A DNA stretch of 64,000 nucleotides, taken from Podaxis mareebaensis. Lineage: Eukaryota; Basidiomycota; Agaricomycetes; Agaricales; Agaricaceae. The stretch spans positions 186,001 through 250,000 of the forward strand of contig JAEUWP010000500.1 in NCBI GenBank assembly GCA_018524725.1, in the 5' to 3' direction. Below the pieces are notes generated by a model. The model saw nothing but the letters and a program-made list of their open reading frames with translations. It was not told the DNA's origin and did no database searches. Of this stretch, positions 4,288 through 39,562 are shown one piece after another. The position numbers were made by a program, and so were the translations under genes. How positions within the stretch are numbered: the stretch's first letter is position 1; the number at the start of each line of letters is the position of its first letter.

Positions 4288-6604
4288 TTACGCCTTCGAA
4301 GGAGGGGGTACATAATCCTTGTGTACCCTCATGTGCTGGCCAAGATTGTCGTGCCTGCTGAAATCCTTGCCGCAACCTGGATAAGGACATCTATGCGCTA
4401 TGGAGGAATCAGAGACGCATACATAAAGGAAACGGATGACTTACGCTTCTCGTAAGTATGGATGCTCCTCACATGTCGCTTCAAGTGTTCCCCCCTTGCA
4501 AAGCACTTGCCGCATCCTTGAACTTCGCACAAATACATCCTCGCGCCTTTTCCGGCCGTCTGGCGCTTTCGCCCAGCTCCACTTGACGCACTCTTGAGAT
4601 CCTCCAACGAGGACGCAGTCGGCACCCTACGCCCTCTTGACTTCTTCGTGAGATTGGGAACAGGGATGGGAACAGGAAGGCTGTTAGAAGGTCGGGGGCG
4701 ACGGCGAGAAGCGCTTGATGAAGCAGAAGAGAGTGTTGTAAAATTGAGGTAACTGTTGGAAAGTGTATTTCCCGCGGTCGGTGAAGCAGAAGGAGCACTA
4801 AAGCGTTTGGACCGGGGGCTCTGCGAAAGCTCATCATAGAGGTGATCCATATAATTTGTGTCATTCTCGGTCGGATGATCGCTGGGGTAGGGGGTGTAAC
4901 GAGTTCCAGTGCGTGTACGGAGACTGCGGCCCTCGGAGTAGCCATAAGAAGGATAAGAAGATGATATTGTCGCCTGTGGACGGCGTTGGCGGCGCGGTCT
5001 GGAACCAGGGATGAACTCGCTATCGTCTGAGTCTGTTGATGAGTCTTCCTCGCTGAATTTGGATTCGTCAGTGTCATCTAATGGCGCTCCTTCCCCCACT
5101 CCGTCGGAGTTAACAGGCACAACCGAGGACCCGGTGGGAAGACTGCTGAACGGCTGCTCGACATCGGAAGGATCCACCTCCTCGCCCTCAGCATCAAGGT
5201 CGCCCAGGTCACCCTCATTGACTTTCTTTTCCCCATCCCAGCCCGACTGCACAGCAGAGTGCGTCATGGATAGGCCCATCCCAAGATCAATCCCAATCGA
5301 CCCTTTGAGATCGTCCCCAGGTGGCATGGCAGGAATACACGCATAGCTCCCTGGTTCACAGCCATCTGAACTGTCAACCCCAATGCCTCTGGCGGCCATC
5401 TCGGGATAAGCGGAAAGCGGGGAATTCGAGGGGCAAGAATCAAGGGGGGATACTTCAGCAGGGTGCACTGTAACATACTGTTGTTGATGACCGTACGGAA
5501 GTCGAGAAAACTGGGACGGGGAATAAAAAGTCGGGGTCGATGTCTGGTGCTGATGATATTGCCGGGAGGAAGCGCGTGCCTGGGTAAGGGCGCCCGCCGG
5601 GTCGGCATTGTGCGACGGCGCGATGGGGTTGGTCATGTCGAAGAACTGGTTCTGGGCCTCGGCGTCCGAGTGATGGTGTGCGTTGATGGAGGTGGAGTAG
5701 CTATCCATACTACCGTCAAATACAAGGTCGCCTGGCTTTGGACGCGATGCCTGCTGCGGGTCTAGGACCTCAGAGGGATAAGATGTGCTAAATTTAGAAC
5801 AGGTCAGACTCGGTAGATAGATAACGGCCAAAAGACAATGACAAAGCGGACGCATCGCGAGTTGAAAATAGCTTACCTTGAGTGGCCGTGTGGGTTGATG
5901 CCGGTAGGTGATGTGTTCCAATCGTCGAGGTCGACATCGAACATGACGTCGTTGGCAGTGACCTGTGGCGGCGCAAGCGATTGCTGTGCATGAAGATGAT
6001 GGGGTTGCGTCTGTCGTTGATGCTGGTGTCGGTGGGGTGACGGAGCATACTGAAATGGGATAGACAAACGTACAACAGACGATAAGGTGGCTTGGTTATG
6101 TCGTTGGGGAGGTGCCGGTGGTGGGATGTAAACAGTGCTCATGGTCTTGGGGAACGGGACGTTCTGTGGTCGGAGAATCTGTTGGCGAGGATAGCGGGAA
6201 GGGCTAAATAGAAGTGACGGTGGAAGGGAAAGAAGAAAGGGTACCTGTGATTTCTTGAGGTCTGAGGCGAGTGTCATCATACCGTAATCAAGATCGGCGG
6301 CGTATGATGGGGCTGTGTCGCACTGCGAGGCGAACATTTGAACTGAAACAGGCCCGGAGGGATATACAGCGACGTCGGTATTCACTGCATCGACCGGGCT
6401 TGGGATATTGTCAAAGTGCGTCTCCGAGATAGGACTATTCTCGTTCGGAAAGGAAGCACTGGAGGCAGAGGAGAAGGGTGATGGAGCTGAGGAGGAATAT
6501 GTAGGGCTTATAGGCGAGGGCATGTTCTTCTTGGACGGGTTCTGGTGTTGAAAGTAGAGGGATGCAATGGAAGCAGCGAAGTGCCGATGTTGGAGGGCGG
6601 CCAT
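4288..6604 (-). CDS. Two-finger C2H2 transcription factor (Msn2-like), paralog 1
   Basis: Predicted nuclear DNA-binding regulator of 704 residues in four exons: 6604-6245, 6178-5877, 5787-4445 and 4397-4288. The first two thirds are Ser/Pro/Gln/His-rich low complexity. A basic motif KKSRGRRVPT precedes two tandem C2H2 fingers at the C-terminus (CEVQGCGKCFARGEHLKRH, then CPYPGCGKDFSRHDNLGQH). The finger pair is divided by a 47-nt intron (4398-4444), whose removal creates the canonical finger linker EKPHRC; this is good evidence for the join. The 66-nt intron at 6179-6244 is a multiple of three and could be retained. Tandem C-terminal fingers with RGEHLKRH and RHDNLxQH helices are typical of the fungal Msn2/4 group, which bind AGGGG-type stress elements; that target is inferred. 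The same basic motif and finger arrangement recur in the gene at 17547-18746. The start at 6604 is the first Met of the open frame. Confidence 0.88.
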
Positions 6605-9600
6605 TGTGACGGGGAAATGGGGGAGATTATATCACGGACGGGGACCGAGCCGAGAGCTACCCCCGAACCTTAGGGAATGGGCCAAGCACCGAAGTAGCGA
6701 AGTGGGCTGGCCGGACGATGAATCTGGGTCGGATAAAAATTCAGCACCAATGTACGATATTGGAAATCCGGGCTTACATGGGGTGGTGGTACGGATGCGA
6801 TCGACGGATGGCGGATGAGTCGATGTGTGCCTGTTACAGAAGGGACGGGGAGCGGGTGTATGTACAGAGGCGAATGATGCAGAGCCTCGGCTTATAGAGG
6901 GCTGGAAAGCAGGGATTAAGACAAAGAAGGGTGGTGATCCTTGAGGAGAAGGAGGCGTAGATCGATCTCGATGGGTTTTATATGAATACCACAACGGGTT
7001 CCAACTGACCGTCGAAAGCAACCCAGGCTCTGGCGGGGACGAGGGCGGGGGGACACGGGGAGGACAGGATGACGAAGGTGAGTGGAGGAAGTACTCGAGT
7101 ATTTCAAGAGAAGAAGAGTGATAGGTGGACTGCTGATGACCGATTGTGGATTAGTATCGAAGTGGAACGCAGTATGACAGAACTGACTGGCGGAAAGAGA
7201 AATGAGAAATGGCCATGAAGAATACGTTTACTGGAATTGATTCTATCGAGCTATCTCTCGGGCAGCGGCATCCATATCTGCCAACGCCGCTTCATTCCCA
7301 GATCTTCCAAGTATGCTTCAGGACACAAATAGGTGAACTGGCCGTAAGCAGGTGCGCCGAAGCGAATCAGAGCGTCACTCCTTCATAACTGCGAGCCCAA
7401 TCTCGTTACGAGCCTCACTAAACGCGCGAGTCTCCCGAGCTACACAACTGATCGGAATCCAACGTCTCGGGCTTAACCTGCCACAAAGGGAACTCTCCTG
7501 CCACTCGCTGCTCCAAACCTTCCCTCAATCACACTCCGTCACGCATACTGGTTCGTCTCTCCTTGTCCTATCCATAACCGCCTCCCCTTCGTATCCCTTT
7601 TCCTGCTTGTGTGTCATGGCAAATTTCGCTGCTCACCGTCTTCCGCGCACCGCACCGTGGACCTTGTCTCAGATAATAAACGGAAAAGACTATGTATGTA
7701 CTCACACAGCCAATACAACACAGCATGCATACGTCACCAGCTGGGCTGGCGGAGTATCAATCGGCTTCCAAGCGGAGCTCGAACCATGAGCCTAATTCCG
7801 GGCAAACCTGATCGTTGAATCTAGCATCCCGCCGATCTCCCGCATCTCAGATCTCCTCATCTCGATCTTCCATATTGAGAGAATGGCCCTCCCCAGGCAA
7901 CCGATGCTCGACGTCTCCCAGGTCGTCACGATTACGCGCCTTCCTTCCCAATTCTTCGGTCGATGCGTCCTTGTCTCTCGCATCATGCATTAACCGTCGC
8001 ATCTCCCACTTCCTCTCTAACCATCGTCCCCACATCCCATCTCATATACCGACACTTGATTACAAGTTTACGGCGGAAGCAAATAGCCGCATTCGCCCAC
8101 GCTGCTTGGCCAAGGACAGTCACCATCGTTGTTCTTGTTTCATACTTTGATATTGCATTCAATTCTCTATCCCGCTCAAATCCATATCCGATTCTAAAAC
8201 TCGACATACATCTCATTAAAACCTCAAAATATACAGACTGTCTCTGCAACACTGTACAGCTTTCATTGACTATCCTTGGTTCGTGTCAGTCGCAAAACAA
8301 GGGAAAGAGTCTCACAGGTCGTGAGTTCAAAGGTGGAGGATACACATGCTTTCACTGATTCAGACCCAAACACTGTTGGAGCAACTTGCAGCCCTGCGAG
8401 CAGACGAATTGACCAACTGTGAGTAGAGATTTGATCATGAAGAACACCTTCGTTTCCTGCATGATGACTCGTAACTCCGTCTACAATGTTAGAGTTTCAT
8501 TTACCGACCTCATAAACGTTATATGATCCTGGTGTGAGAGGAAGAATCCTCGGATGACAAGGTGAAGGTGGTGTCGCATAACACATCCTTCTGGTGCCTC
8601 CTGAATACTTATTACAGTCGACCAAATTGAACCAGAAAGCTCGGGTATCCACCCTGCCGTGTAGAATAACACCCCCGGGCTGTTGGGAGCATATTCTGGC
8701 GTTCAAGAATGAGTGGGTTATTTTTAGTTAATACATGACGCCAGCGGAAATTTCCCGAGAACTACAGAATCGCGCAGCCGCGTTCCTGTCTAACCACTAA
8801 AGGTCGTTATCTGAAAGTAGAGAAGCATCGATATCGGGGCGTTGAACCCGACGCGCGTCGTGATCGTACCATTAACAACTTCTTCGCGCCCGCGTCCCCC
8901 TTTCATTAAATGAAGTGGTTCCAAGCTGACGAGCGTTGCCAGGAGAATGACGACGGATTATCAGACTGTGGGTTAATCTTTCTTCAAAATTGCCATTAGC
9001 AAAGTTCAGCAACAGATCGAGCACATGATATCCTTCAAGGAGAACTCGAAGCTCCTGAACGATCCCGTGTATATGGCTCTCGATTTTCAATATGTTACAT
9101 CTACCAGTGTTGCCAAATGCGCGTATTCGCTAGCACGATGCTCGCATAAATATTTTTGGTGGTACGTTTGGAACCGAACTAGATGCAATAATCTCTCGAT
9201 AATGAAATGTATCGACAATTCTCTCTCCTTTGTTCCATTCAGCAATAGCACTAAGCGATCAGGGGGCCACTCGTGGCATGACGCTTTACAGTTTCGCGCC
9301 ACAACGGACATTTGTCGAATACATTTAGCTGCCTCAACCAGGAGTCGGTGCCCTCAACCGCCACATCGAAAAACTTGAAGCCCTTTCTGTTCCGTAGCAC
9401 GCTTACGATATACCCGAGTGCTTCAATTAATTACCGCCTGCAATAACGTATTGGAAATGTTCTACTAAGTATTATAAAAATTCTTGCCCTCACCTGGTGC
9501 ATCATGGCAGGTGCTATGTACGTCCTAGACATGTGTATGGAAGCTGAGGTCTTCGCTGAGGAGTCATGCTGCCTATTAGTCGTCCGACATAGACGCTGAA

Positions 9601-29308: not shown

Positions 29309-32300
29309 ATGTACATACAATCGCGGCCATCGCAGAACGGTACGGCCTATGCTGAAGGCGAGTTTTATGATCAACAAGTTTCCACCTCTCGTTCTTACAT
29401 CACAAACTCAGGTGTCGGCTGGCCCCAAGGCCCTGCCTCCCGGATAGGAACACAAAGCTCGGACTCAGACACTGAACGCGAATACCGCTCTACATCTCTC
29501 TCGGACCCATCCGGACAACACCAAGGAAGCAGCGACATCAATCGCGACGACAGCCCCGCAGAGAACGCGAACCCATCTATAGATATCCTCCCAGACTCTG
29601 GACCTCCCATTCCATACTGGTCTGTCAAGCGCCATCTCACATGTGGCAATCCCACTCCGGGTCCTCCGTGGTCCCAGCAGTTCGTACCCTGGCGTGGTTC
29701 GGCTCCCGGAAAACTTAAGACTGCCAACGCAGCACTTGTCCTGTGCCTCAACATCGATGTTGACCCCCCAGATATAGTAAAAACCAACCCTTGCGCAGTA
29801 TTGGAAAGTTGGGTCAATCCCCACACTCTGCCTTCTCACAAAGCACTGGAAGCCATCGGCTCTAACCTTCAGCACCAGTTCGAGGGGCTTAGTCTCAAGA
29901 TCGCCTATAAACCGATACTGGATCCGTCCCTGGAGGATCTCCGTCGCTTCTGTCAGACTTTACGTAGGCAGGCAAAGGACGATGCTGTTCTGTTTTATTA
30001 CAATGGTCATGGCGTCCCGAAACCCACTTCAAGTGGTGAACTGTGGTGCTTCAACCGCAACTATACGCAGTATATCCCCGTTTCATTACAGGAGGTGCAA
30101 AGCTGGATTGGCTCGCCGGGTGTTTATATCTGGGACTGTTCGGCAGCAGGTCATCTACTCAACAACTTCAACACCTTTGCCCGACGGCGCGATCAGGAGG
30201 CGAGAGCAGCTCACGGGGAATTTCCTGAAGGCATCCACCCCTTCACCGACTCACTACAACTTGCCGCATGTGGACCGAACGAACAGCTACCTTCATGTCC
30301 AGAGTTACCTGCAGATGTATTTACCGCCTGCCTCACATCTCCCATTGACATTGCCCTACGATACTTCACCATGAACAACCAGCTCCCAAACGGCATTTCG
30401 ATAGACATGGTTATTCAGCTTCCCGGAGATCTTAAAGATCGTCGGACACCTCTTGGGGAACTTAACTGGATTTTCACTGCAATTACCGACACGATTGCCT
30501 GGACGACCTTTCCTCGTGATATCTTTGTCAAACTGTATCGCTCGGATCTCCTCATCGCTTCCCTTTTCCGCAACTTTCTCCTCGCAGAACGTGTTATGAA
30601 GAATTATCACTGTACCCCACTTACTGAACCACGACTTCCCCCTACCAATACCCACCCTCTATGGGACACATGGGATTTAGCCGTTGATGCTTGCTTGCGC
30701 CAACTCCCTGACCTCCTGTACAGACCACCAGAGCTGAAGGGTGGCAATCTCGCGAAACTCGGTGTGACTCCAGACAAAATTGGTCAACCAGGCAAAGACC
30801 CTTTTGGCGGTCTCTTCAAGCCACCCGATGCCAAACCCTACGTCTACATTCCCAGCAGATTCTTCGCCGACCAACTCACTGCGTTCGAGGTTTGGATATC
30901 ACGAGGTGGATCTGCATTGACCAAACGGGGTCCCATGGCTCTGCCCGTCCCTGCTCCCAGCCAGGACGTTCCGCCGACACCCAGCATAGGAGAATCAAAA
31001 CCGGCGCCAGGAACCAACACTCCCTTCCCCGACAAAGATGCCCTTGCCAAACGTACCACTGAAGAAATCCGTCAAATGCGCCCAAAGCTCGACGGAATCA
31101 ACGACCAACGACACCTCGTCCCACGCAAACCACCCGACCAACTCCCGATAGTCCTCCAAGTCCTCCTCTCGCAACCTCACCGTCTACGTGCACTCATCCT
31201 CTTGTCCCAATTCGTTGATCTAGGACCCTGGGCTGTCCACTTAGTACTCACAATCGGCATCTTCCCATACATCTCGAAACTCCTCCAAGCAGCGGGCCAA
31301 GACCTCCGCCCCGTTCTTATATTCATCTGGGCGCGCATTCTCGCGGTTGACCAGTCTGTACAAGCTGACCTCTTCAACTCCTCCGGCTTCAAATATTTTT
31401 CGACGGTCCTTGGACTCCAGAACGACGACGTCCTCCCGAACAGCTCGGAACACAAAGCCATGTGCTCGTTTATCCTTGCTTCAGTCTCACGAGATTTCCC
31501 TCACGGACAAGCCGCCTGCTGGTCAGAACGGGTATTCGACAACTGTTGGAATAGACTTGAAGAACCAGATTTCCTGTTGAGGCAATGGACAGCGTTGTGT
31601 ATTGCGCAGATGTGGGCGGGGAATGACGAGATTAAGGTATATGGTGTTGATCGTGGGACGCAGGATAAGTTGATTAGGATGTTGGCGGATGATTCGGCGG
31701 AGGTGAGGTCTGCAGCTTTGTATGCGTTGGGGACATTTATGGGTGCGAGTGGGTCGGCTGATCCGAGTAGGCCTGGTGGGGGTGGAACGGGGACGATGTA
31801 CCATTTGGAGGAGAGAGTGCATTTTAGGATGGAGGTGGCTGTTGCGACGGGTGCTACGCTTGCCATTAAGGACGATGCGAGCCCGATGTGTAGGAAGGAG
31901 TTATTGGTGGTGATCAGTTGTTTGGTGAAGGAATGGCGGGGGTATTTTGTGGTGTGTGCGTGGTTGTATTGGGAGGAGGATAGGCGATGGAGGGCGGGTG
32001 CGACGGGACATAGTTCGAAAGCGTATATCCATGACGATGATGTCACAAATCAGGCCGTCACGGAGTGGTTGGACAGTTTCGGGGACGATGAGATGTTAAG
32101 AGAGGAGAACCGTGTGCTGCTTTCGTCGTTTTTCACGATTTTTGTTGTCTTGTTGGATCTTTCCGTGGACCCATACGTGGAAGTCGCGACGATGGCACAG
32201 ACGATCGTGGATTACATCGTGGCTTTGCTCTTGGAATCTCCGTTTACAAAGCTCGAGAGCTCGACGCTGGATAAACCTCCGACGGCACCGAATGAGAAAC

Positions 32301-34592
32301 GTACTGGGTCATCACCGTATTTGGGCTCGGAACGAACGAGAAGTCTCTCATCTGGGGCTCCTACTACGGCAGTTATTGCACCTCCTTCGCCAAATCCGGA
32401 CCGACCATCATTGGCAAGGACTGACACCCTAGGAAACCCGTTGTCCAGTACGCTCAAGCGCACGTCATCCTTCGCAAACGCCACCTCGTCGTTTATCAAA
32501 TCCTTTGCCTTCCCCTCGACGTCTTCAGATGAAAACAGATCCTCATCCGCTCCTCCGCTTTCCGGGTCAACAAGTTTCCAAGAACCCATCGACCTTACGA
32601 AACCTCCTCCTCCAAATCTCAATTTCGCGAAATACGAATCACCCTATCCAGATCCCGAATCTTCCGAGAACTCCCCATCCCCTTCATCGCATCTGCGCGA
32701 AAGAGAGAGGTTCTCCGCCAACGCAGCAAATTCACCCCACTCTTCGCAAGAAGTCCCGCACTACACACACGATTTCCAACCTTACCACGTCATGGAGGCG
32801 TTGATGGAAGAAGATATGGAACGGCTGCGTGCAAGACGTAGGACTGGATTGTACCCGAGGAACCGTCACCAGAGTCAGGGACATGGCGGGAGTGGCTCAA
32901 TGCCAAGTCCGAGTAATAGTACGTTCTCGAGGGATTCGGGTGATAGTAGTGTGATTTTGGGGCTGGGGACGGGGGCTGGAATCAGGGATGTGTTGCCGTT
33001 GAGGAGTACGTTCTTTGATTGGTGTTGTGAATACTTTAAGGAGCCGCAGATGAGGGTGAGTGTCCTGTCTTTTGTTCTGGAGTTGGGGTGGGTGATTAAT
33101 GTAACATGCCTTTAGCAAACAGAGGCAGACGAACCGGGTAGTATGCAATACAATTATCAAGTGTGGAGAAACTCGAGGAATGAGAAGGTTTTGAGTGAGA
33201 CAAAGGAGCAGGCCAATAATGCTGGTGAGTTTGTGTTATCCCCCTGGAGCGTCGGTTGTTGACGCTGTCGAGCAGAATTTTGTAGATGGGATAGACCTGT
33301 GGCAACGATACAGACTGGAGGATACCCGCTTACCATGGCTTTCCATTCGTTTGATCAACAGCTTGTCGTTGCAAATGATAGTGACATTGTTAGGTACGCA
33401 CAACCTGGTTCTCGATAACAAAGCGCGAGTTGACGGCCATATAGCGTGTATGATTGGTCAACCCGTAAACGCCTCAGTCAATGGTGCAATGGGAACCCCA
33501 AAGGCGCGAGTATCACATCCATCCACATCATCAATCAGGATGTTGGTGGCATTATTGTCGTTGGATCAGCTGAGGGCATCGTTCGGTTGTACCGCAACTA
33601 TGATCCAGTCCTGGAGCAAGGACCTGTTCAGATGGTTAGCGCGTTCCGGGCGTTGAATGAAGTTATCCAAATGAGGCAGGGAACTGGTTTGATCCTTGAT
33701 TGGAAACAGTCCGCTGGAACGCTTCTCGTTGGTGGTGATTCGCGGGTCATCAAAGTGTGGGATGCGCAAACAGAAACCCAGGGATTGGTGAGTTTTCTCT
33801 ACAGAATTGAGACAACAAGCTGAGTTTATGCATTCTAGGACATGGACACTAACTCTGAAAGTCCCGTCACTGCTATTGCTTCCGACATGGGTAACTCGCA
33901 GACGTTTGCTGCTAGTTTCGCTGACGGTATGGTCAAGATCTTTGATCGACGGATAGAGGAGGAAGACTCCATTGTGAGGACGTATTCCGATCATACGTCT
34001 TGGATACAGAATGTGTGCTGGCACCCGAGACAAGGATTACAGCTTATGTCGGCTAGGTATGTGCACGGCCTGCGCCTTGAGATGACTTTACTGAATTGAC
34101 TACTTTAGCTTGGATGGACAAGTGAAGTTATGGGACATGCGAGGACCTCCCCTGCCAATCAAAACATGGCAGGTTCAGCCTCAGGGCCTCTCGGCGTTTG
34201 ACGCTCATCCGTTAACAGGCGTCTTTGCGTCGTGAGTTCACTGCTCCCTTCCTCTTTGCTTTCCACTGAGATCTATGCTTCTCAGGTCGTCTGCCATCGG
34301 CGCCACCAACTGGCGTGCACAAAAGATCGTCGTCAACTCGTTGAACCAGCCCGAACCCCTCTCATCATTCCACCTACAGACCGGAATGACTATGGCCCCG
34401 CTACGGACACTGCCATCGACGTTCATTCCAAGACTTAGTTCGTTGGTTTTCCATCCAAAGGAAATGCTCTATGGCTTGGGTCAGCCTGATGGTACAAGTG
34501 AGTGCTACACCTCTTTTACTTGGAACTAATTTTGATGTAATTGCTCAGTTCGTGTCATGGGCTGTAAACTCTCTCAGCCAGAATTTGCATAA
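29309..34592 (+). CDS. KOG1: Raptor/Kog1, TORC1 scaffold subunit
   Basis: Scaffold of TOR complex 1 that presents substrates to the TOR kinase at the vacuole or lysosome in response to nutrients. The model has eight exons: 29309-33055, 33116-33224, about 33276-33393, about 33445-33787, 33839-34056, 34109-34231, 34286-34497 and 34549-34592, about 1,637 residues. The N-terminal caspase-like Raptor domain is clear (FYYNGHGVPKPTSSGELW and IWDCSAAGHLLNNF). Armadillo/HEAT-type helices follow (LLSQPHRLRALILLSQFVDL). Then comes a Ser/Pro-rich variable region (roughly residues 1000-1200) and a C-terminal seven-blade WD40 domain (GNPKGASITSIHIINQDVGG and SLDGQVKLWDMRG). The first exon of 3.7 kb is uninterrupted, while the WD40 part holds seven short introns. 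Length and domain order are normal for the family. The start is the first Met of the long frame; a few residues either way are possible. Confidence 0.96.
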
Positions 34593-35437: not shown

Positions 35438-38017
35438 TCATTCGGTCGACGCAACTCCATTGAGGCCCAGATTTCCCCTGGTCCAATGCTCATTCCCTGC
35501 AATGAAGTCCCCACGAACCACCTTCCCTCTCTCTCGTACGACCCCTTGATGTTCTACCTTCACATACACGCCCTCCACTCTCCCATCATAGAACCGAGAC
35601 GGCATTTCAATTAGCTCCATGAACCTGTTTCGGGATGGCAGCTCGTTTTGCAGCTCGCACATGATAGGGACAATAGGAATAGAAGTGTCCCGCAAAACAG
35701 CCTCTAAAGTTGCACGATCGACAAACTGACAGGAACTGCGATCGTATAAGTCAAAGGCGATGAAGAGGTCGGGGAGACGAGTATAAGCAATAGAGTGGGT
35801 TGCATACATCCACTCGCCGAAAAAGATGTACCGCTCGGCATAGTAAGGGTCGCGATCGAGAACGTGATAAATGTCCGAACGGCGCTGTTCGATCCACTTC
35901 CCCAACTTTTTGAATTGTTCATGCGTTTCGGGGTTCACGAAATGAGACCTATTTTGGACGAGGATGTTAGAGCGGTCAGGGGAAAGCGAAAATCCCATAT
36001 TGGCACCATCAATCTTTTCAGTGATGATCACACGACCAACGACTTCTCGGCCAAGATTAGCGTCTCGAGAAACAATATCGTCGGGTGTGGCACCTCCAAC
36101 ATCTATCAGATGCGATGTGCGAGGAAACTTGAATATGGTGACGGGTGGTGATAAGAGCCGAACAAGTTCCAGGGCAGCTTGGAATGACTTGATCCGAACA
36201 ACTGCAGCGAATCCTTCAGACAGCCGTGGCCTGACGAACTGCTGGTGCATTTGGGTGATGGCGTTGCGGACACGGTTACCCGGTGGGAGAGTGGGATGTC
36301 CGATTCGCATTTGCGCCCTTGATGTGCACAGCACGCGATCGTAATCGAACCAAACGCAGACAGGGGAGATGGCCCAGTTGGATGCTAATTTAAGCCACTC
36401 CTTCCTTTCTACGTCCGACATATTGCATCGATCGAGCAGCGTGAGACTGTGTCCAGGTTTCCTCGATATCGCCGACTCGCACGCCACACGGCTGCCAAAT
36501 TCGTCTTGGGAGACCCTCCAAAAGTGTTGTGGCGCGCGAGCCACTAAAGCATTGGAGAACCATGATTTTCCGGAACCAGGTAAGCCAACGAGAACGATGA
36601 GGTTGGATTCCGAGGAAATCGTGCCTTCCACCTCCATGGGACAAGGTGGTGGTTCGGAGGGTCTTTCAGGATAGATCGACTGCCGTTTCCAGATGGTGCT
36701 ACACCACTTAGAAATGAACTCTTCTTGCTGAGAGGTTTCTATGCTTCCCGGTCTAATGGTACGTAGGATTCTAACCGCTTCTGAGGCAGCCAGCTCGGGC
36801 TGGGTCAGATGGAGATTTGGTTTCTTGAACCCATAGGCAGCAAGGTAGCACGCGACAACCGTGCCAGCTCTCCCTTTTCCTCCGCCGCAGTGAACCAGTA
36901 CAGGGCGCTTCTTCTCGTCGTCTATCAGCTGCATGATGATGTCCATCTGCTCGATCGACGGTGGGTGATAATTGGGGATAGGTAGGAAGGTATTGGATAT
37001 CGATTTGTTCCTGAACCAGGAAAGAGGAAGGGGTGTCTCTTCGGTAAGTGTGAGGACATGGCGAATGCCTAGATGAGGTGATGCGAGGACGTCGATGTCC
37101 TCTTCGCTCCTGGGCGTGGACATAACGGCCAAGTGATACGGGATGACCCAGCGAAAGAACCGGGGTAATTTGTGGTATTGATTAGTCCCAACAGGAACGA
37201 ACAGGGCATCTCGAGGTTCGAGACGAAGCGAAGGGGTTACCTCCAGGTCGCTGAGTTTCTCTCGAAGTGACCCTGACCAGGGTGTAAGCAGTAGGTTCGA
37301 GGGAATGTCCACTTTTTCGTGTTTCTGCAAGGCAGCACCCCATTCAGTCTCCCGAGCGCACACCACCAACTTCTTGATGCAATATTTTTGCACCTTGTGG
37401 TCGTCAGTCCGATCATGGGCCTGTGCATAGGCCAGCATAGCGTCCTTATAACTCTGCAGAGCAAGCGATGCTTCTGCAAACCGCAGAAACCCTTTTTGTG
37501 AGTCCGGACAGGTATTCATGAGCTCCAGGGCGAAGCTTTTCGCTTCGGTATGCCGTGAGAAGATAAAGGAAGTAAAAGATGAATGATCCAGAAACTCCGG
37601 GCTCGACAAAGGAGGTTGGTCGGGAAGCAGCGACTGGATACTTTTGTCCATTTCATGATCATCGTGGGGAGACAGAGTGATATGGAAGTGTTTTGGCGGA
37701 AGACCAAACCGTTTTCGAAGCTGTTGACCTGCTGCCCAAATAACGACAACGAAAAACACGCCATTTTTCCCACCAACACCGGCTGCAAAGACGTGGTTTG
37801 TATCCAATTCCTGTTGAAGCTGATTCAAACGAATCGAGGAATCGCGTAGTTCGCCTTTAGATGTGAGGGTAATATGGTACGGCATGCGTGTGTGTAGTTG
37901 ATCGTTTCGAACCCAAGGGCAATTCTGGATCGCGCTGCGAGCCATTTCGTCAACGCCGGGCCCAGTCAAAGCGTAAACACCGTGGATTTTCTGTAAGGAC
38001 AGCGCCATGTCACGCAA
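35438..38017 (-). CDS. Multidomain RNA-repair-like protein: 2H phosphoesterase, phosphatase, polynucleotide kinase and RNA ligase
   Basis: Single uninterrupted frame of 859 residues. Residues 1-125 carry two HxT motifs (H48-I-T50 and H112-I-T114), the signature of 2H phosphoesterases that open 2',3'-cyclic phosphates. Residues 150-225 are helical, TPR-like. Residues 290-445 form a dual-specificity phosphatase fold with the active-site loop HCGGGKGRAG (Cys377, Arg383); RNA 5'-phosphatases belong to this superfamily. Residues 470-620 hold a P-loop kinase: Walker A GLPGSGKS (478-485) and LLDRCNMSDVERKEW, as in PNK-type kinases. Residues 625-859 are an ATP-dependent RNA ligase: motif I EKIDGANMGF (adenylated Lys668), FGEWMY, FIAFDLYDR, motif IV EGVYVK and motif V KVVRGDF. 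Together they could heal and seal broken RNA, for example cleaved tRNA. The activities are inferred from motifs; substrate and location are unknown. The start could also be the second Met, at 38008. Confidence 0.9.
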   Translation of the reverse strand: MRDMALSLQKIHGVYALTGPGVDEMARSAIQNCPWVRNDQLHTRMPYHITLTSKGELRDSSIRLNQLQQELDTNHVFAAGVGGKNGVFFVVVIWAAGQQLRKRFGLPPKHFHITLSPHDDHEMDKSIQSLLPDQPPLSSPEFLDHSSFTSFIFSRHTEAKSFALELMNTCPDSQKGFLRFAEASLALQSYKDAMLAYAQAHDRTDDHKVQKYCIKKLVVCARETEWGAALQKHEKVDIPSNLLLTPWSGSLREKLSDLEVTPSLRLEPRDALFVPVGTNQYHKLPRFFRWVIPYHLAVMSTPRSEEDIDVLASPHLGIRHVLTLTEETPLPLSWFRNKSISNTFLPIPNYHPPSIEQMDIIMQLIDDEKKRPVLVHCGGGKGRAGTVVACYLAAYGFKKPNLHLTQPELAASEAVRILRTIRPGSIETSQQEEFISKWCSTIWKRQSIYPERPSEPPPCPMEVEGTISSESNLIVLVGLPGSGKSWFSNALVARAPQHFWRVSQDEFGSRVACESAISRKPGHSLTLLDRCNMSDVERKEWLKLASNWAISPVCVWFDYDRVLCTSRAQMRIGHPTLPPGNRVRNAITQMHQQFVRPRLSEGFAAVVRIKSFQAALELVRLLSPPVTIFKFPRTSHLIDVGGATPDDIVSRDANLGREVVGRVIITEKIDGANMGFSLSPDRSNILVQNRSHFVNPETHEQFKKLGKWIEQRRSDIYHVLDRDPYYAERYIFFGEWMYATHSIAYTRLPDLFIAFDLYDRSSCQFVDRATLEAVLRDTSIPIVPIMCELQNELPSRNRFMELIEMPSRFYDGRVEGVYVKVEHQGVVRERGKVVRGDFIAGNEHWTRGNLGLNGVASTE

Positions 38018-38176
38018 ATGGAGATCTGGAAGGTATCAATGCAGTTGGTGGCCTTGAAGTTACGAAATATAAGCCCGACGGTGCCATCTCGTGAGTCAGC
38101 TTGACGGTTAACAAGATATGTCGTGTGGCTGTGCCATGTGTGTATCGGTCCCGTCGATGGTGTGAGTGGCCAGTTC
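38018..38176. promoter_or_regulatory. Compact divergent promoter, RNA-repair gene / RCC1-like gene
   Basis: The two start codons lie at most 159 bp apart (105 bp if the upstream ATG at 38123 is used), transcribed away from each other. Both genes therefore share one nucleosome-sized promoter, which makes co-regulation likely but not certain. Confidence 0.5.
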
Positions 38177-39562
38177 ATGAAGATGCTTACACTCTTGTCC
38201 GCGGGCTCGAATGCTCAAGGTCAGCTTGGCAACTCGACTGTCGATGATTCCCACATATTCCAAACTTGCTCATTCGCCCAAACACCACCTGGAACCCTTC
38301 CTCCAGGCACTACCAACGTCCTGGATATCGCGAATGGTTCCAACCACACCCTCGCGCTCCTCGAAGCTAGGACGGCTGATGACGCGAACACAACTCAGGT
38401 ATGGGGATGTGGGGACGGGAAGAAGGGTCAGCTAGGGCCACACTATCGGAGATGCTGCCAAGATCAGGAGTCCACGACAGTCTTCCAACGTTTGCTTTTC
38501 GATGAAGCTCTCGATAAACTGGGTCTCCCGGATTGCGTGGTCACCGCTATCGGTGCAACATGGGAGACGTCCTACTTGGCACTCACACGACCCAGAAGAC
38601 ATGACGTGATCGTGTCTTTTGGTTCTAACGAGTTCGGTGATCTTGGAATCGGCAAAGATGCGGGTGACAAGTCGGTTGAGAAGGGTCCAGGTATCCATAT
38701 AGTCGACTTTTCTCATATTATTATAGGTGGGAACACGATTGATTCTGCCCAAACTGTGACTGTTGAAAGATTACGGACTGGCCAAAGACATGTTATCGCG
38801 TCCCTGAGAATTGTGTGGGAGGGGAAGGAACCCATGCAGGTACTCGTTGGATGGGGTGCCTGTAGACGTGGACAACTTGGTGCTGTTCCGGCTGTCCCCA
38901 AACCTCCCAAGTGTTCCACCAAACCGAAGAATATCCGCGTCCCACCTCAAATTGCCTACTACTCCCGTCCGACACCCATTGTCTCGACTGCAGCACCATC
39001 GGATTTCGTCGTAGAATATTCCTTGGGCATTCATCATAGCGTTTTCCTTCATGCTTCGGGCCGCTTGTCATTCCGAGGCTCCAACCACAAAAATCAGACC
39101 CAAGGACTCGATGGCCTTCAGAACGTCTGTGACGTCAAGTGCACTTGGAATGGAACATGCGTGCTTACCACCGAAAATCCTTGTCATATCTTGACTATGG
39201 GAAGTAACTCGCATAGCCAGCTAGGAAGGGCAGAGGGCGCTCAGAGCCAGGAAGTCCAAGGCGTACCACTCTTGGAAGGCAACAAGAAGGTTAAAGCCCT
39301 GGCTTGCGGAAGCGAGCATTCGTTGGTTTGCCTGACGACTAACGGGCAAGAGGACGAGGTCTGGGGGTGGGGGTGGAACGAACATGGCAATCTGGGTGTT
39401 GGGAACACAATCGACTCCTTGACTCCATTCAGGATTTGGCCACCATCGCATCAGCCAGAAAACGTTGAGATTCACCCCGTTCGCAGCATTTGGGGTGGAA
39501 CAGGCTCAAGCTGGATCCTTTGTGGTGCACCCGATAGTGCTGGACATATGATTTACAAGTAA
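38177..39562 (+). CDS. RCC1-repeat propeller protein, possible Ats1/Kti13 orthologue
   Basis: Intronless gene of about 461 residues built of RCC1-type beta-propeller repeats: SAGSNAQGQLGN, VWGCGDGKKGQLG, SFGSNEFGDLGIG, GWGACRRGQLG, TMGSNSHSQLGR and WGWGWNEHGNLGVGN. RCC1 propellers serve as exchange factors or as protein-binding platforms. The low repeat conservation and the start LLSAGSNAQGQLG resemble fungal alpha-tubulin suppressor Ats1 (Kti13). Ats1 binds Kti11 and promotes wobble-uridine tRNA modification and diphthamide synthesis. I prefer the ATG at 38177 over the upstream in-frame ATG at 38123, because the propeller begins directly after it and the extra 18 residues look non-coding. 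Orthology to Ats1 rather than another RCC1-like protein is a guess from architecture. It is divergent from the RNA-repair-like gene. Confidence 0.82.
   Translation: MKMLTLLSAGSNAQGQLGNSTVDDSHIFQTCSFAQTPPGTLPPGTTNVLDIANGSNHTLALLEARTADDANTTQVWGCGDGKKGQLGPHYRRCCQDQESTTVFQRLLFDEALDKLGLPDCVVTAIGATWETSYLALTRPRRHDVIVSFGSNEFGDLGIGKDAGDKSVEKGPGIHIVDFSHIIIGGNTIDSAQTVTVERLRTGQRHVIASLRIVWEGKEPMQVLVGWGACRRGQLGAVPAVPKPPKCSTKPKNIRVPPQIAYYSRPTPIVSTAAPSDFVVEYSLGIHHSVFLHASGRLSFRGSNHKNQTQGLDGLQNVCDVKCTWNGTCVLTTENPCHILTMGSNSHSQLGRAEGAQSQEVQGVPLLEGNKKVKALACGSEHSLVCLTTNGQEDEVWGWGWNEHGNLGVGNTIDSLTPFRIWPPSHQPENVEIHPVRSIWGGTGSSWILCGAPDSAGHMIYK

Follow-up and report, generated by a model that had tools for sequence, protein, structure and literature searches.

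A predicted one-chain RNA heal-and-seal repair enzyme of the SAK family in the mushroom Podaxis mareebaensis

The 64,000-nucleotide window of Podaxis mareebaensis DNA, by which we mean the whole stretch analysed, encodes what is probably a one-chain RNA heal-and-seal repair enzyme of the SAK family, separate from tRNA splicing. This reading is held with reasonable confidence because four Pfam domains with intact catalytic residues lie in one frame, the predicted fold and the conservation of the protein agree with it, and Trl1 and Tpt1 are encoded separately. Read from the N-terminus, the protein opens with a 2H phosphoesterase, continues through a TPR-like stretch and a Cys phosphatase to a PNKP-type kinase, and closes with an Rnl2-like ligase (Table 1). 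Its gene is a single open frame of 859 codons without a stop (window 35438-38017, minus strand) that needs no intron, and the ATG at 38008 rather than the TTG at 38017 is the likely start, as the corresponding Met4 is aligned with Met in all 101 relatives that have a letter at this position. Residues are numbered here by the 859-aa frame, and the numbering of the AlphaFold model, which is confident (pLDDT 92.7, pTM 0.87), is three lower. For three metagenomic relatives of 859-869 aa (P0026, P0009 and P0072) the longest contigs measure 2,753 to 3,013 bases, which leaves little space for introns in those genes either; an intron-free gene would fit a horizontal origin without proving one.

Table 1. 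Features of the SAK gene in the window (positions of the window; residues of the 859-aa frame)
Feature	Position	Strand	Basis or remark
SAK coding sequence, whole	35438..38008	-	856 aa, intron-free frame, probable start ATG at 38008
2H phosphoesterase domain, residues 17-121	37655..37969	-	PF22547; HxT pairs H48/T50 and H112/T114
TPR-like helical region, about residues 140-220	37358..37600	-	AlphaFold model and fold comparison
DUSP23-like Cys phosphatase domain, residues 285-435	36713..37165	-	PF22784
Asn349, at the position of DUSP23 Asp65	36971..36973	-	Alignment with DUSP23
Phosphatase P-loop, C377 to R383, then Ala384	36869..36889	-	C377, R383 and A384 in 119/119 relatives listed (best 120 of 509)
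Glu427, equivalent of DUSP23 Glu134, likely general acid	36737..36739	-	Alignment; 119/119 relatives listed (best 120 of 509)
PNKP-type 5'-kinase domain, about residues 469-624	36146..36613	-	Walker A 478-485, K484, D505
Rnl2-like ligase nucleotidyltransferase domain, about residues 626-845	35483..36142	-	K668 nucleophile

The original prediction had named four activities in this order and had pointed to H48/T50, H112/T114, C377-R383, GLPGSGKS with K484, and K668-IDG, all of which are found in the frame. The four domains and their order are borne out by Pfam, in which the 2H, phosphatase, kinase and RNA ligase families all match above their cut-offs, and by fold comparison; the TPR-like helical region and the existing family name, SAK, were absent from that prediction. 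The 2H-SAK family (PF22547) matches residues 17-121 (E 1.2e-17, 64.7 bits, cut-off 27), a region with both H-x-T/S motifs of the 2H phosphoesterases, and the 2H assignment rests on Pfam and these motifs since the fold comparison, in which the match lists for this part are filled by TPR chains, gave no 2H confirmation. The same chain is matched at residues 285-435 by PTP-SAK (PF22784; E 1.1e-59, 201.3 bits, cut-off 27). PF22547 matches none of 14 control genomes, and there is one 2H-SAK match in the whole P. mareebaensis genome. PF22784 alone is not specific, as it matches 8/14 control genomes and two other places in the same genome, at far lower scores.

The kinase is matched by AAA_33 (PF13671) at residues 473-512 (E 8.4e-11, above the cut-off) and has a polynucleotide-kinase-like P-loop fold with the Walker A lysine and Asp505, its best solved folds being the fungal kinases 9drz and 9d8a, PNKP and the polynucleotide kinase of C. 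thermocellum. Only this part matches the NCBIfam whole-protein equivalog PNK-3'Pase, with 43.1 bits against a cut-off of 502.8. The RNA_ligase family (PF09414) matches residues 662-834 (E 1.8e-30, 106.8 bits, cut-off 27), the KxDG, EGxxxK and KxxR motifs of Rnl2-type ligases are present, and the best solved folds are the RNA ligases of Naegleria and T4 (Rnl2). Rnl2 ligases carry a C-terminal domain after the nucleotidyltransferase. This domain is absent here, the chain ending at residue 859, about 14 residues past the last fold-matched residue (about 845), and the expectation of an Rnl2-like ligase at the end of the chain holds for the nucleotidyltransferase part but leaves no room for the C-terminal domain.

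The four-domain frame is not a chance product, given that a protein search found 509 relatives. The best 120 were listed and one is the window protein itself (P0002), leaving 119 that share 52-77% identity with mostly 97-100% query cover (lowest 86%). They include Macrolepiota, Leucocoprinus, Coprinopsis, Amanita, Armillaria, Trametes and Ganoderma, and those with names are often annotated as 'ATP dependent DNA ligase', 'dual specificity phosphatase' or hypothetical protein. Across these 119 relatives (best 120 of 509) the architecture is kept, mostly end to end, and Cys377/Arg383 of the phosphatase, Lys484/Asp505 of the kinase and Lys668/Glu815/Lys832 of the ligase are intact in every one. 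The two HxT/S pairs of the 2H domain are both intact in 96/116 and degenerate in 20/116, with gaps in 3 further rows. The phosphatase-kinase-ligase triad is thus strongly conserved, unlike the 2H part.

A search with a 404-aa kinase-ligase query found 250 proteins, of which the best 120 were listed, many of them contig fragments; its length rule limits rows to about 222-707 aa, so that four-domain rotifer or oomycete proteins could not appear. Among these rows the core triad without 2H is present in the bdelloid rotifers Adineta (P0147) and Didymodactylos (P0150), the oomycete rows P0185 and P0195 and the ascomycete Elsinoe (P0208), as seen by alignment and, for P0147, P0185 and P0208, by Pfam; the gene models of P0185 and P0208 start inside the phosphatase and may be front-shortened. 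All four domains are found in another ascomycete, Pseudogymnoascus (P0264, P0265). When domain profiles were counted on the same proteins from which they were built, the 263 proteins with a match comprised 121 with the order 2H-MID-PTP-KIN-LIG, 13 with 2H-PTP-KIN-LIG (one of which, P0244, has a ligase stub), 24 with MID-PTP-KIN-LIG, 46 with PTP-KIN-LIG, 48 with KIN-LIG and 8 with LIG, and three further orders occur once each. Within this set, assembled with queries that mostly contain the phosphatase, all 134 proteins with 2H, kinase and ligase also have the phosphatase. Individual rows show further variation. P0263 (930 aa) has a weak ligase match ahead of the phosphatase and kinase, an arrangement that the other rows do not share. 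In P0057 (Mycena maculata) and P0101 (Cytidiella melzeri) there is an additional PfkB carbohydrate-kinase domain, from real fusions or merged gene models. The tremellomycete Kwoniella mangroviensis (P0127) groups among agaric rows beside the window protein and P0006 in a quick tree (SH-aLRT 98), as if by sideways transfer between mushrooms and the Kwoniella yeast, or by mislabelling.

With PF22547 and PF22784 both matching in one chain, and no difference found from these SAK families, the window protein is, by its Pfam matches, a member of an already named protein type. The relatives listed likewise carry both SAK domains with kinase and ligase. The hope that the domain combination would be new is accordingly disappointed, since two Pfam families were already named for the SAK type and the same set is present in many mushroom species. 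The source paper is reportedly that of Burroughs and Aravind in 2023. A description or biochemistry of the SAK architecture was not found in a literature search that covered a minority of subscription papers.

Trl1 resembles the SAK protein in joining a ligase, a P-loop kinase and a cyclic phosphodiesterase (CPD) in one chain, and its CPD is of the 2H type. It differs in its order (ligase-kinase-CPD), its ligase family (PF09511) and its lack of a Cys phosphatase, and the predicted contrast in ligase family and domain order is upheld by Pfam and fold comparison. A reading of the window protein as a Trl1 homologue is rejected, as PF09511, PF08303 and PF08302 are all missing from the 21 Pfam families that match it at E up to 1 and Trl1 is elsewhere. 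The search for Trl1 located a separate Trl1-type gene on contig C183, with its ligase, kinase and CPD parts (PF09511, PF08303, PF08302) in that order and in several frames as expected with introns, and Tpt1 (PF01885) is present in pieces on contig C47. The one RNA_ligase match in the genome is the window's own. Because Trl1 and Tpt1 are separate, the SAK protein is viewed as a second system, with tRNA splicing provided for elsewhere. The multi-protein RNA-repair system with Hen1 is similar to SAK in that a phosphatase, a kinase and a ligase act together on broken RNA, and is unlike SAK in being made of several proteins and in having two phosphatase types from two different superfamilies. Neither of these is known to be a Cys phosphatase. 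In the neighbourhood of the SAK gene are a gene for Raptor of the TOR complex (window 29309-33115, plus strand) and an RCC1-repeat gene (38123-39562, plus strand) that is head-to-head with it; no RNA families reach gathering score in the window.

Relatives beyond the cellular eukaryotes are of several kinds. On the 30.9 kb IMG/VR contig L094, the 2H, phosphatase and kinase domains lie in one frame (5758-7455, minus strand) and the ligase in the neighbouring opposite frame (5052-5780, plus strand), so that two genes, placed tail to tail, share the four domains between them. Eight more frames of at least 190 aa encode an M13 peptidase, an IMPDH/GMP-reductase-type protein, a methyltransferase, a PP-loop protein and a weak repeat match, with three blank; as none of these eight is a viral hallmark gene, the contig is termed giant-virus-like from its collection and gene content. 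Among the 80 viral loci kept, 2H and phosphatase matches occur only in L094 and a kinase match in 24 (L094 included), and the 6 phage records that match do so only over the ligase or over kinase and ligase together. Searching with the L094 protein brought up twelve environmental proteins (P0245, P0247-P0251, P0256-P0261) with all four domains, the ligase being full or partial. The top two Foldseek matches among predicted viral structures are from Terrestrivirus (A0A3G4ZM97, 859 aa; 931 alignment columns, E 8e-62, TM-score 0.27 by query) and Bodo saltans virus (A0A2H4UUE0, 649 aa; 732 alignment columns, E 5e-38, TM-score 0.18 by query); identity to the window protein is 24% and the TM-scores are low. 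The viral scan with the window protein alone gave no match, and a scan of an anti-phage library gave one, at E 0.003, that was taken as chance. In prokaryote contigs the core alignment found 188 relatives, and the best 80 were kept, all titled bacteria. A bacterial origin of the whole fusion is rejected for these best 80 of 188, as the 2H, phosphatase or kinase profiles match none of the 80 loci within the DNA stretches scanned. The same loci (L014-L093, best 80 of 188) are diverse and hold a relative of the ligase part alone, with 32-41% identity in the best segment.

The phosphatase has DUSP23 as its best solved fold and 25xa as its closest solved sequence, both of which are named protein phosphatases. 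It has the CX5R loop and fold of DUSP23 and, in Glu427, the counterpart of Glu134, and it lacks the loop Asp65; in the alignment Ala384 takes the place of the Thr after the P-loop Arg, within the sequence HCGGGKGRAGT. The loop acid is changed from Asp to Asn in 117/118 and 43/44 rows with a letter there, in two row sets, and Cys377, Arg383, Glu427 and Gln431 are conserved. In DUSP23, Asp65 is subservient to Glu134, which does the primary general-acid job (PMC9038691). Together with the conserved Glu427, this weakens the view that Asn349 marks a dead or acid-free phosphatase.

The branch of the window protein holds fungi, rotifers, oomycetes and many rows without a name. Of its rows, 187 have a phosphatase match, the window protein included; 22 are gapped, and 163 of the 165 with letters at all sites combine Asn, Ala and Glu, the other two (P0027 and P0226) having Asp, Ala and Glu. 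The environmental or virus-like rows have Asp with a hydrophobic residue in place of the Glu (19/19) and Thr at position 384 (18/19). These two branches were defined by which search found each row, and in a quick tree of 75 rows, for which P0226 was too short, the 12 virus-like rows kept are set apart by a branch with SH-aLRT 100. A single deep split separates the two acid types, so the rows do not count independently, and Asn/Glu versus Asp without Glu is one evolutionary contrast rather than many. A control from the same genome, the other phosphatase L006, is a weak profile match and keeps Asp and Thr. Neither the Asp/Glu contrast nor the apparently split virus-like version was met in the literature examined, which was mostly open-access.

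In the proposed mechanism, the 2H domain would act on the 3' side of a break, where it would open the 2',3'-cyclic phosphate and probably leave a 2'-phosphate, an end that 2H chemistry is described as leaving for later clearance (PMC9503650). The Cys phosphatase, through Cys377 and Arg383 and with Glu427 as the proton donor instead of the usual loop Asp, would then strip the remaining terminal phosphate, likeliest the 2'-phosphate. The kinase would add a phosphate to the 5'-OH side, and the ligase, adenylylated on Lys668, would join the 5'-phosphate to the 3'-OH; the TPR-like stretch may bind the RNA or a partner. The chemistry of each domain is taken from its family, to which we infer a substrate, an order of steps and any need for partners, and a self-sufficient SAK protein would do every step on RNA. 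The phosphatase, kinase and ligase would form the core and the 2H domain an accessory, replaceable by other cyclic phosphodiesterases. The full four-step path would not be universal, since 2H is degenerate in 20/116 relatives and missing in the listed rotifer and oomycete forms. The phosphatase is retained even where 2H is missing or degenerate, so the phosphate that it removes may be supplied by a different phosphodiesterase, or may be a 5'-triphosphate; a first guess at its substrate would be the 2'-phosphate and a second the 5'-triphosphate. Since the P-loop Arg is followed by Ala384, where a Ser/Thr is usual, and the loop Asp is missing, the phosphatase could work slowly or on an unusual phosphate. 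The protein-phosphatase names of its closest solved relatives, 25xa and DUSP23, and the lack of the Rnl2 C-terminal domain in the ligase both count against a heal-and-seal function.

Under a different assignment, which is unlikely, the phosphatase would be an RNA 5'-polyphosphatase that converts 5'-triphosphate into 5'-monophosphate ends for sealing, with the kinase serving 5'-OH ends. The replacement of the loop Asp by Asn would suit such an enzyme, given that the RNA 5'-phosphatases MCE1, DUSP11/PIR1 and the baculovirus enzyme are placed among the PTPs without a WPD motif (PMC9038691). The retention of the phosphatase where 2H is absent or degenerate points the same way, as its substrate need not derive from the SAK 2H domain. 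Against it, Glu427 is conserved and may still serve as a proton donor, DUSP23 is the best fold match, and the P-loop differs from the HCTHGxNRTG of RNA triphosphatases. It is very improbable that the domain is instead a non-catalytic module for binding ends: Asn349 and Ala384 do break with the active consensus in almost every row of this branch, but Cys377, Arg383, Glu427 and Gln431 would be unneeded for mere binding and are nonetheless conserved.

The substrate could also be broader than RNA. PNKP-type kinases also act on DNA, and a kinase of this type, together with the core triad in the bdelloid rotifers P0147 and P0150, is compatible with a general break-repair enzyme for DNA and RNA nicks after radiation or drying, rather than one dedicated to RNA. 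Two RNA ligases of Adineta vaga, predicted to be horizontally acquired, rise after radiation (PMC10809525), which would add to this case if they are of the SAK family. This general role is considered doubtful, as the rotifer link assumes that the induced ligases are SAK relatives, a 2H domain makes sense mainly for RNA 2',3'-cyclic ends, and the ligase matches the RNA_ligase family. A back-up ligase for tRNA splicing or for mRNA splicing of the HAC1 type, overlapping with Trl1, is quite improbable: Trl1-like chemistry (CPD, kinase, ligase) can be composed from the SAK domains, but the genome already has Trl1 and Tpt1, and the ligase family and domain order differ from those of Trl1.

A wider evolutionary scenario for the SAK proteins is possible, although it is put forward tentatively and is more doubtful than the enzyme assignment. 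In it they would be RNA-repair machines on one chain that have passed between giant viruses and eukaryotes in both or either direction, descended from a two-acid ancestor with both Asp and Glu, as in DUSP23, from which the virus-like branch would have kept only the Asp and the fungal, rotifer and oomycete branch only the Glu; the 2'-phosphate would be removed without NAD, independently of Tpt1. If the SAK enzyme itself works as proposed above, self-contained RNA repair would exist beside the tRNA-splicing ligase in mushrooms, some ascomycetes, rotifers and oomycetes, and probably in giant viruses. The reciprocal Asp/Glu pattern offers a testable instance of general-acid replacement within one phosphatase family. 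The SAK enzyme could also serve as a one-pot RNA ligation reagent. A working SAK enzyme would point to RNA damage, as from ribotoxins, stress or conflict with viruses, as a selective pressure in eukaryotes.
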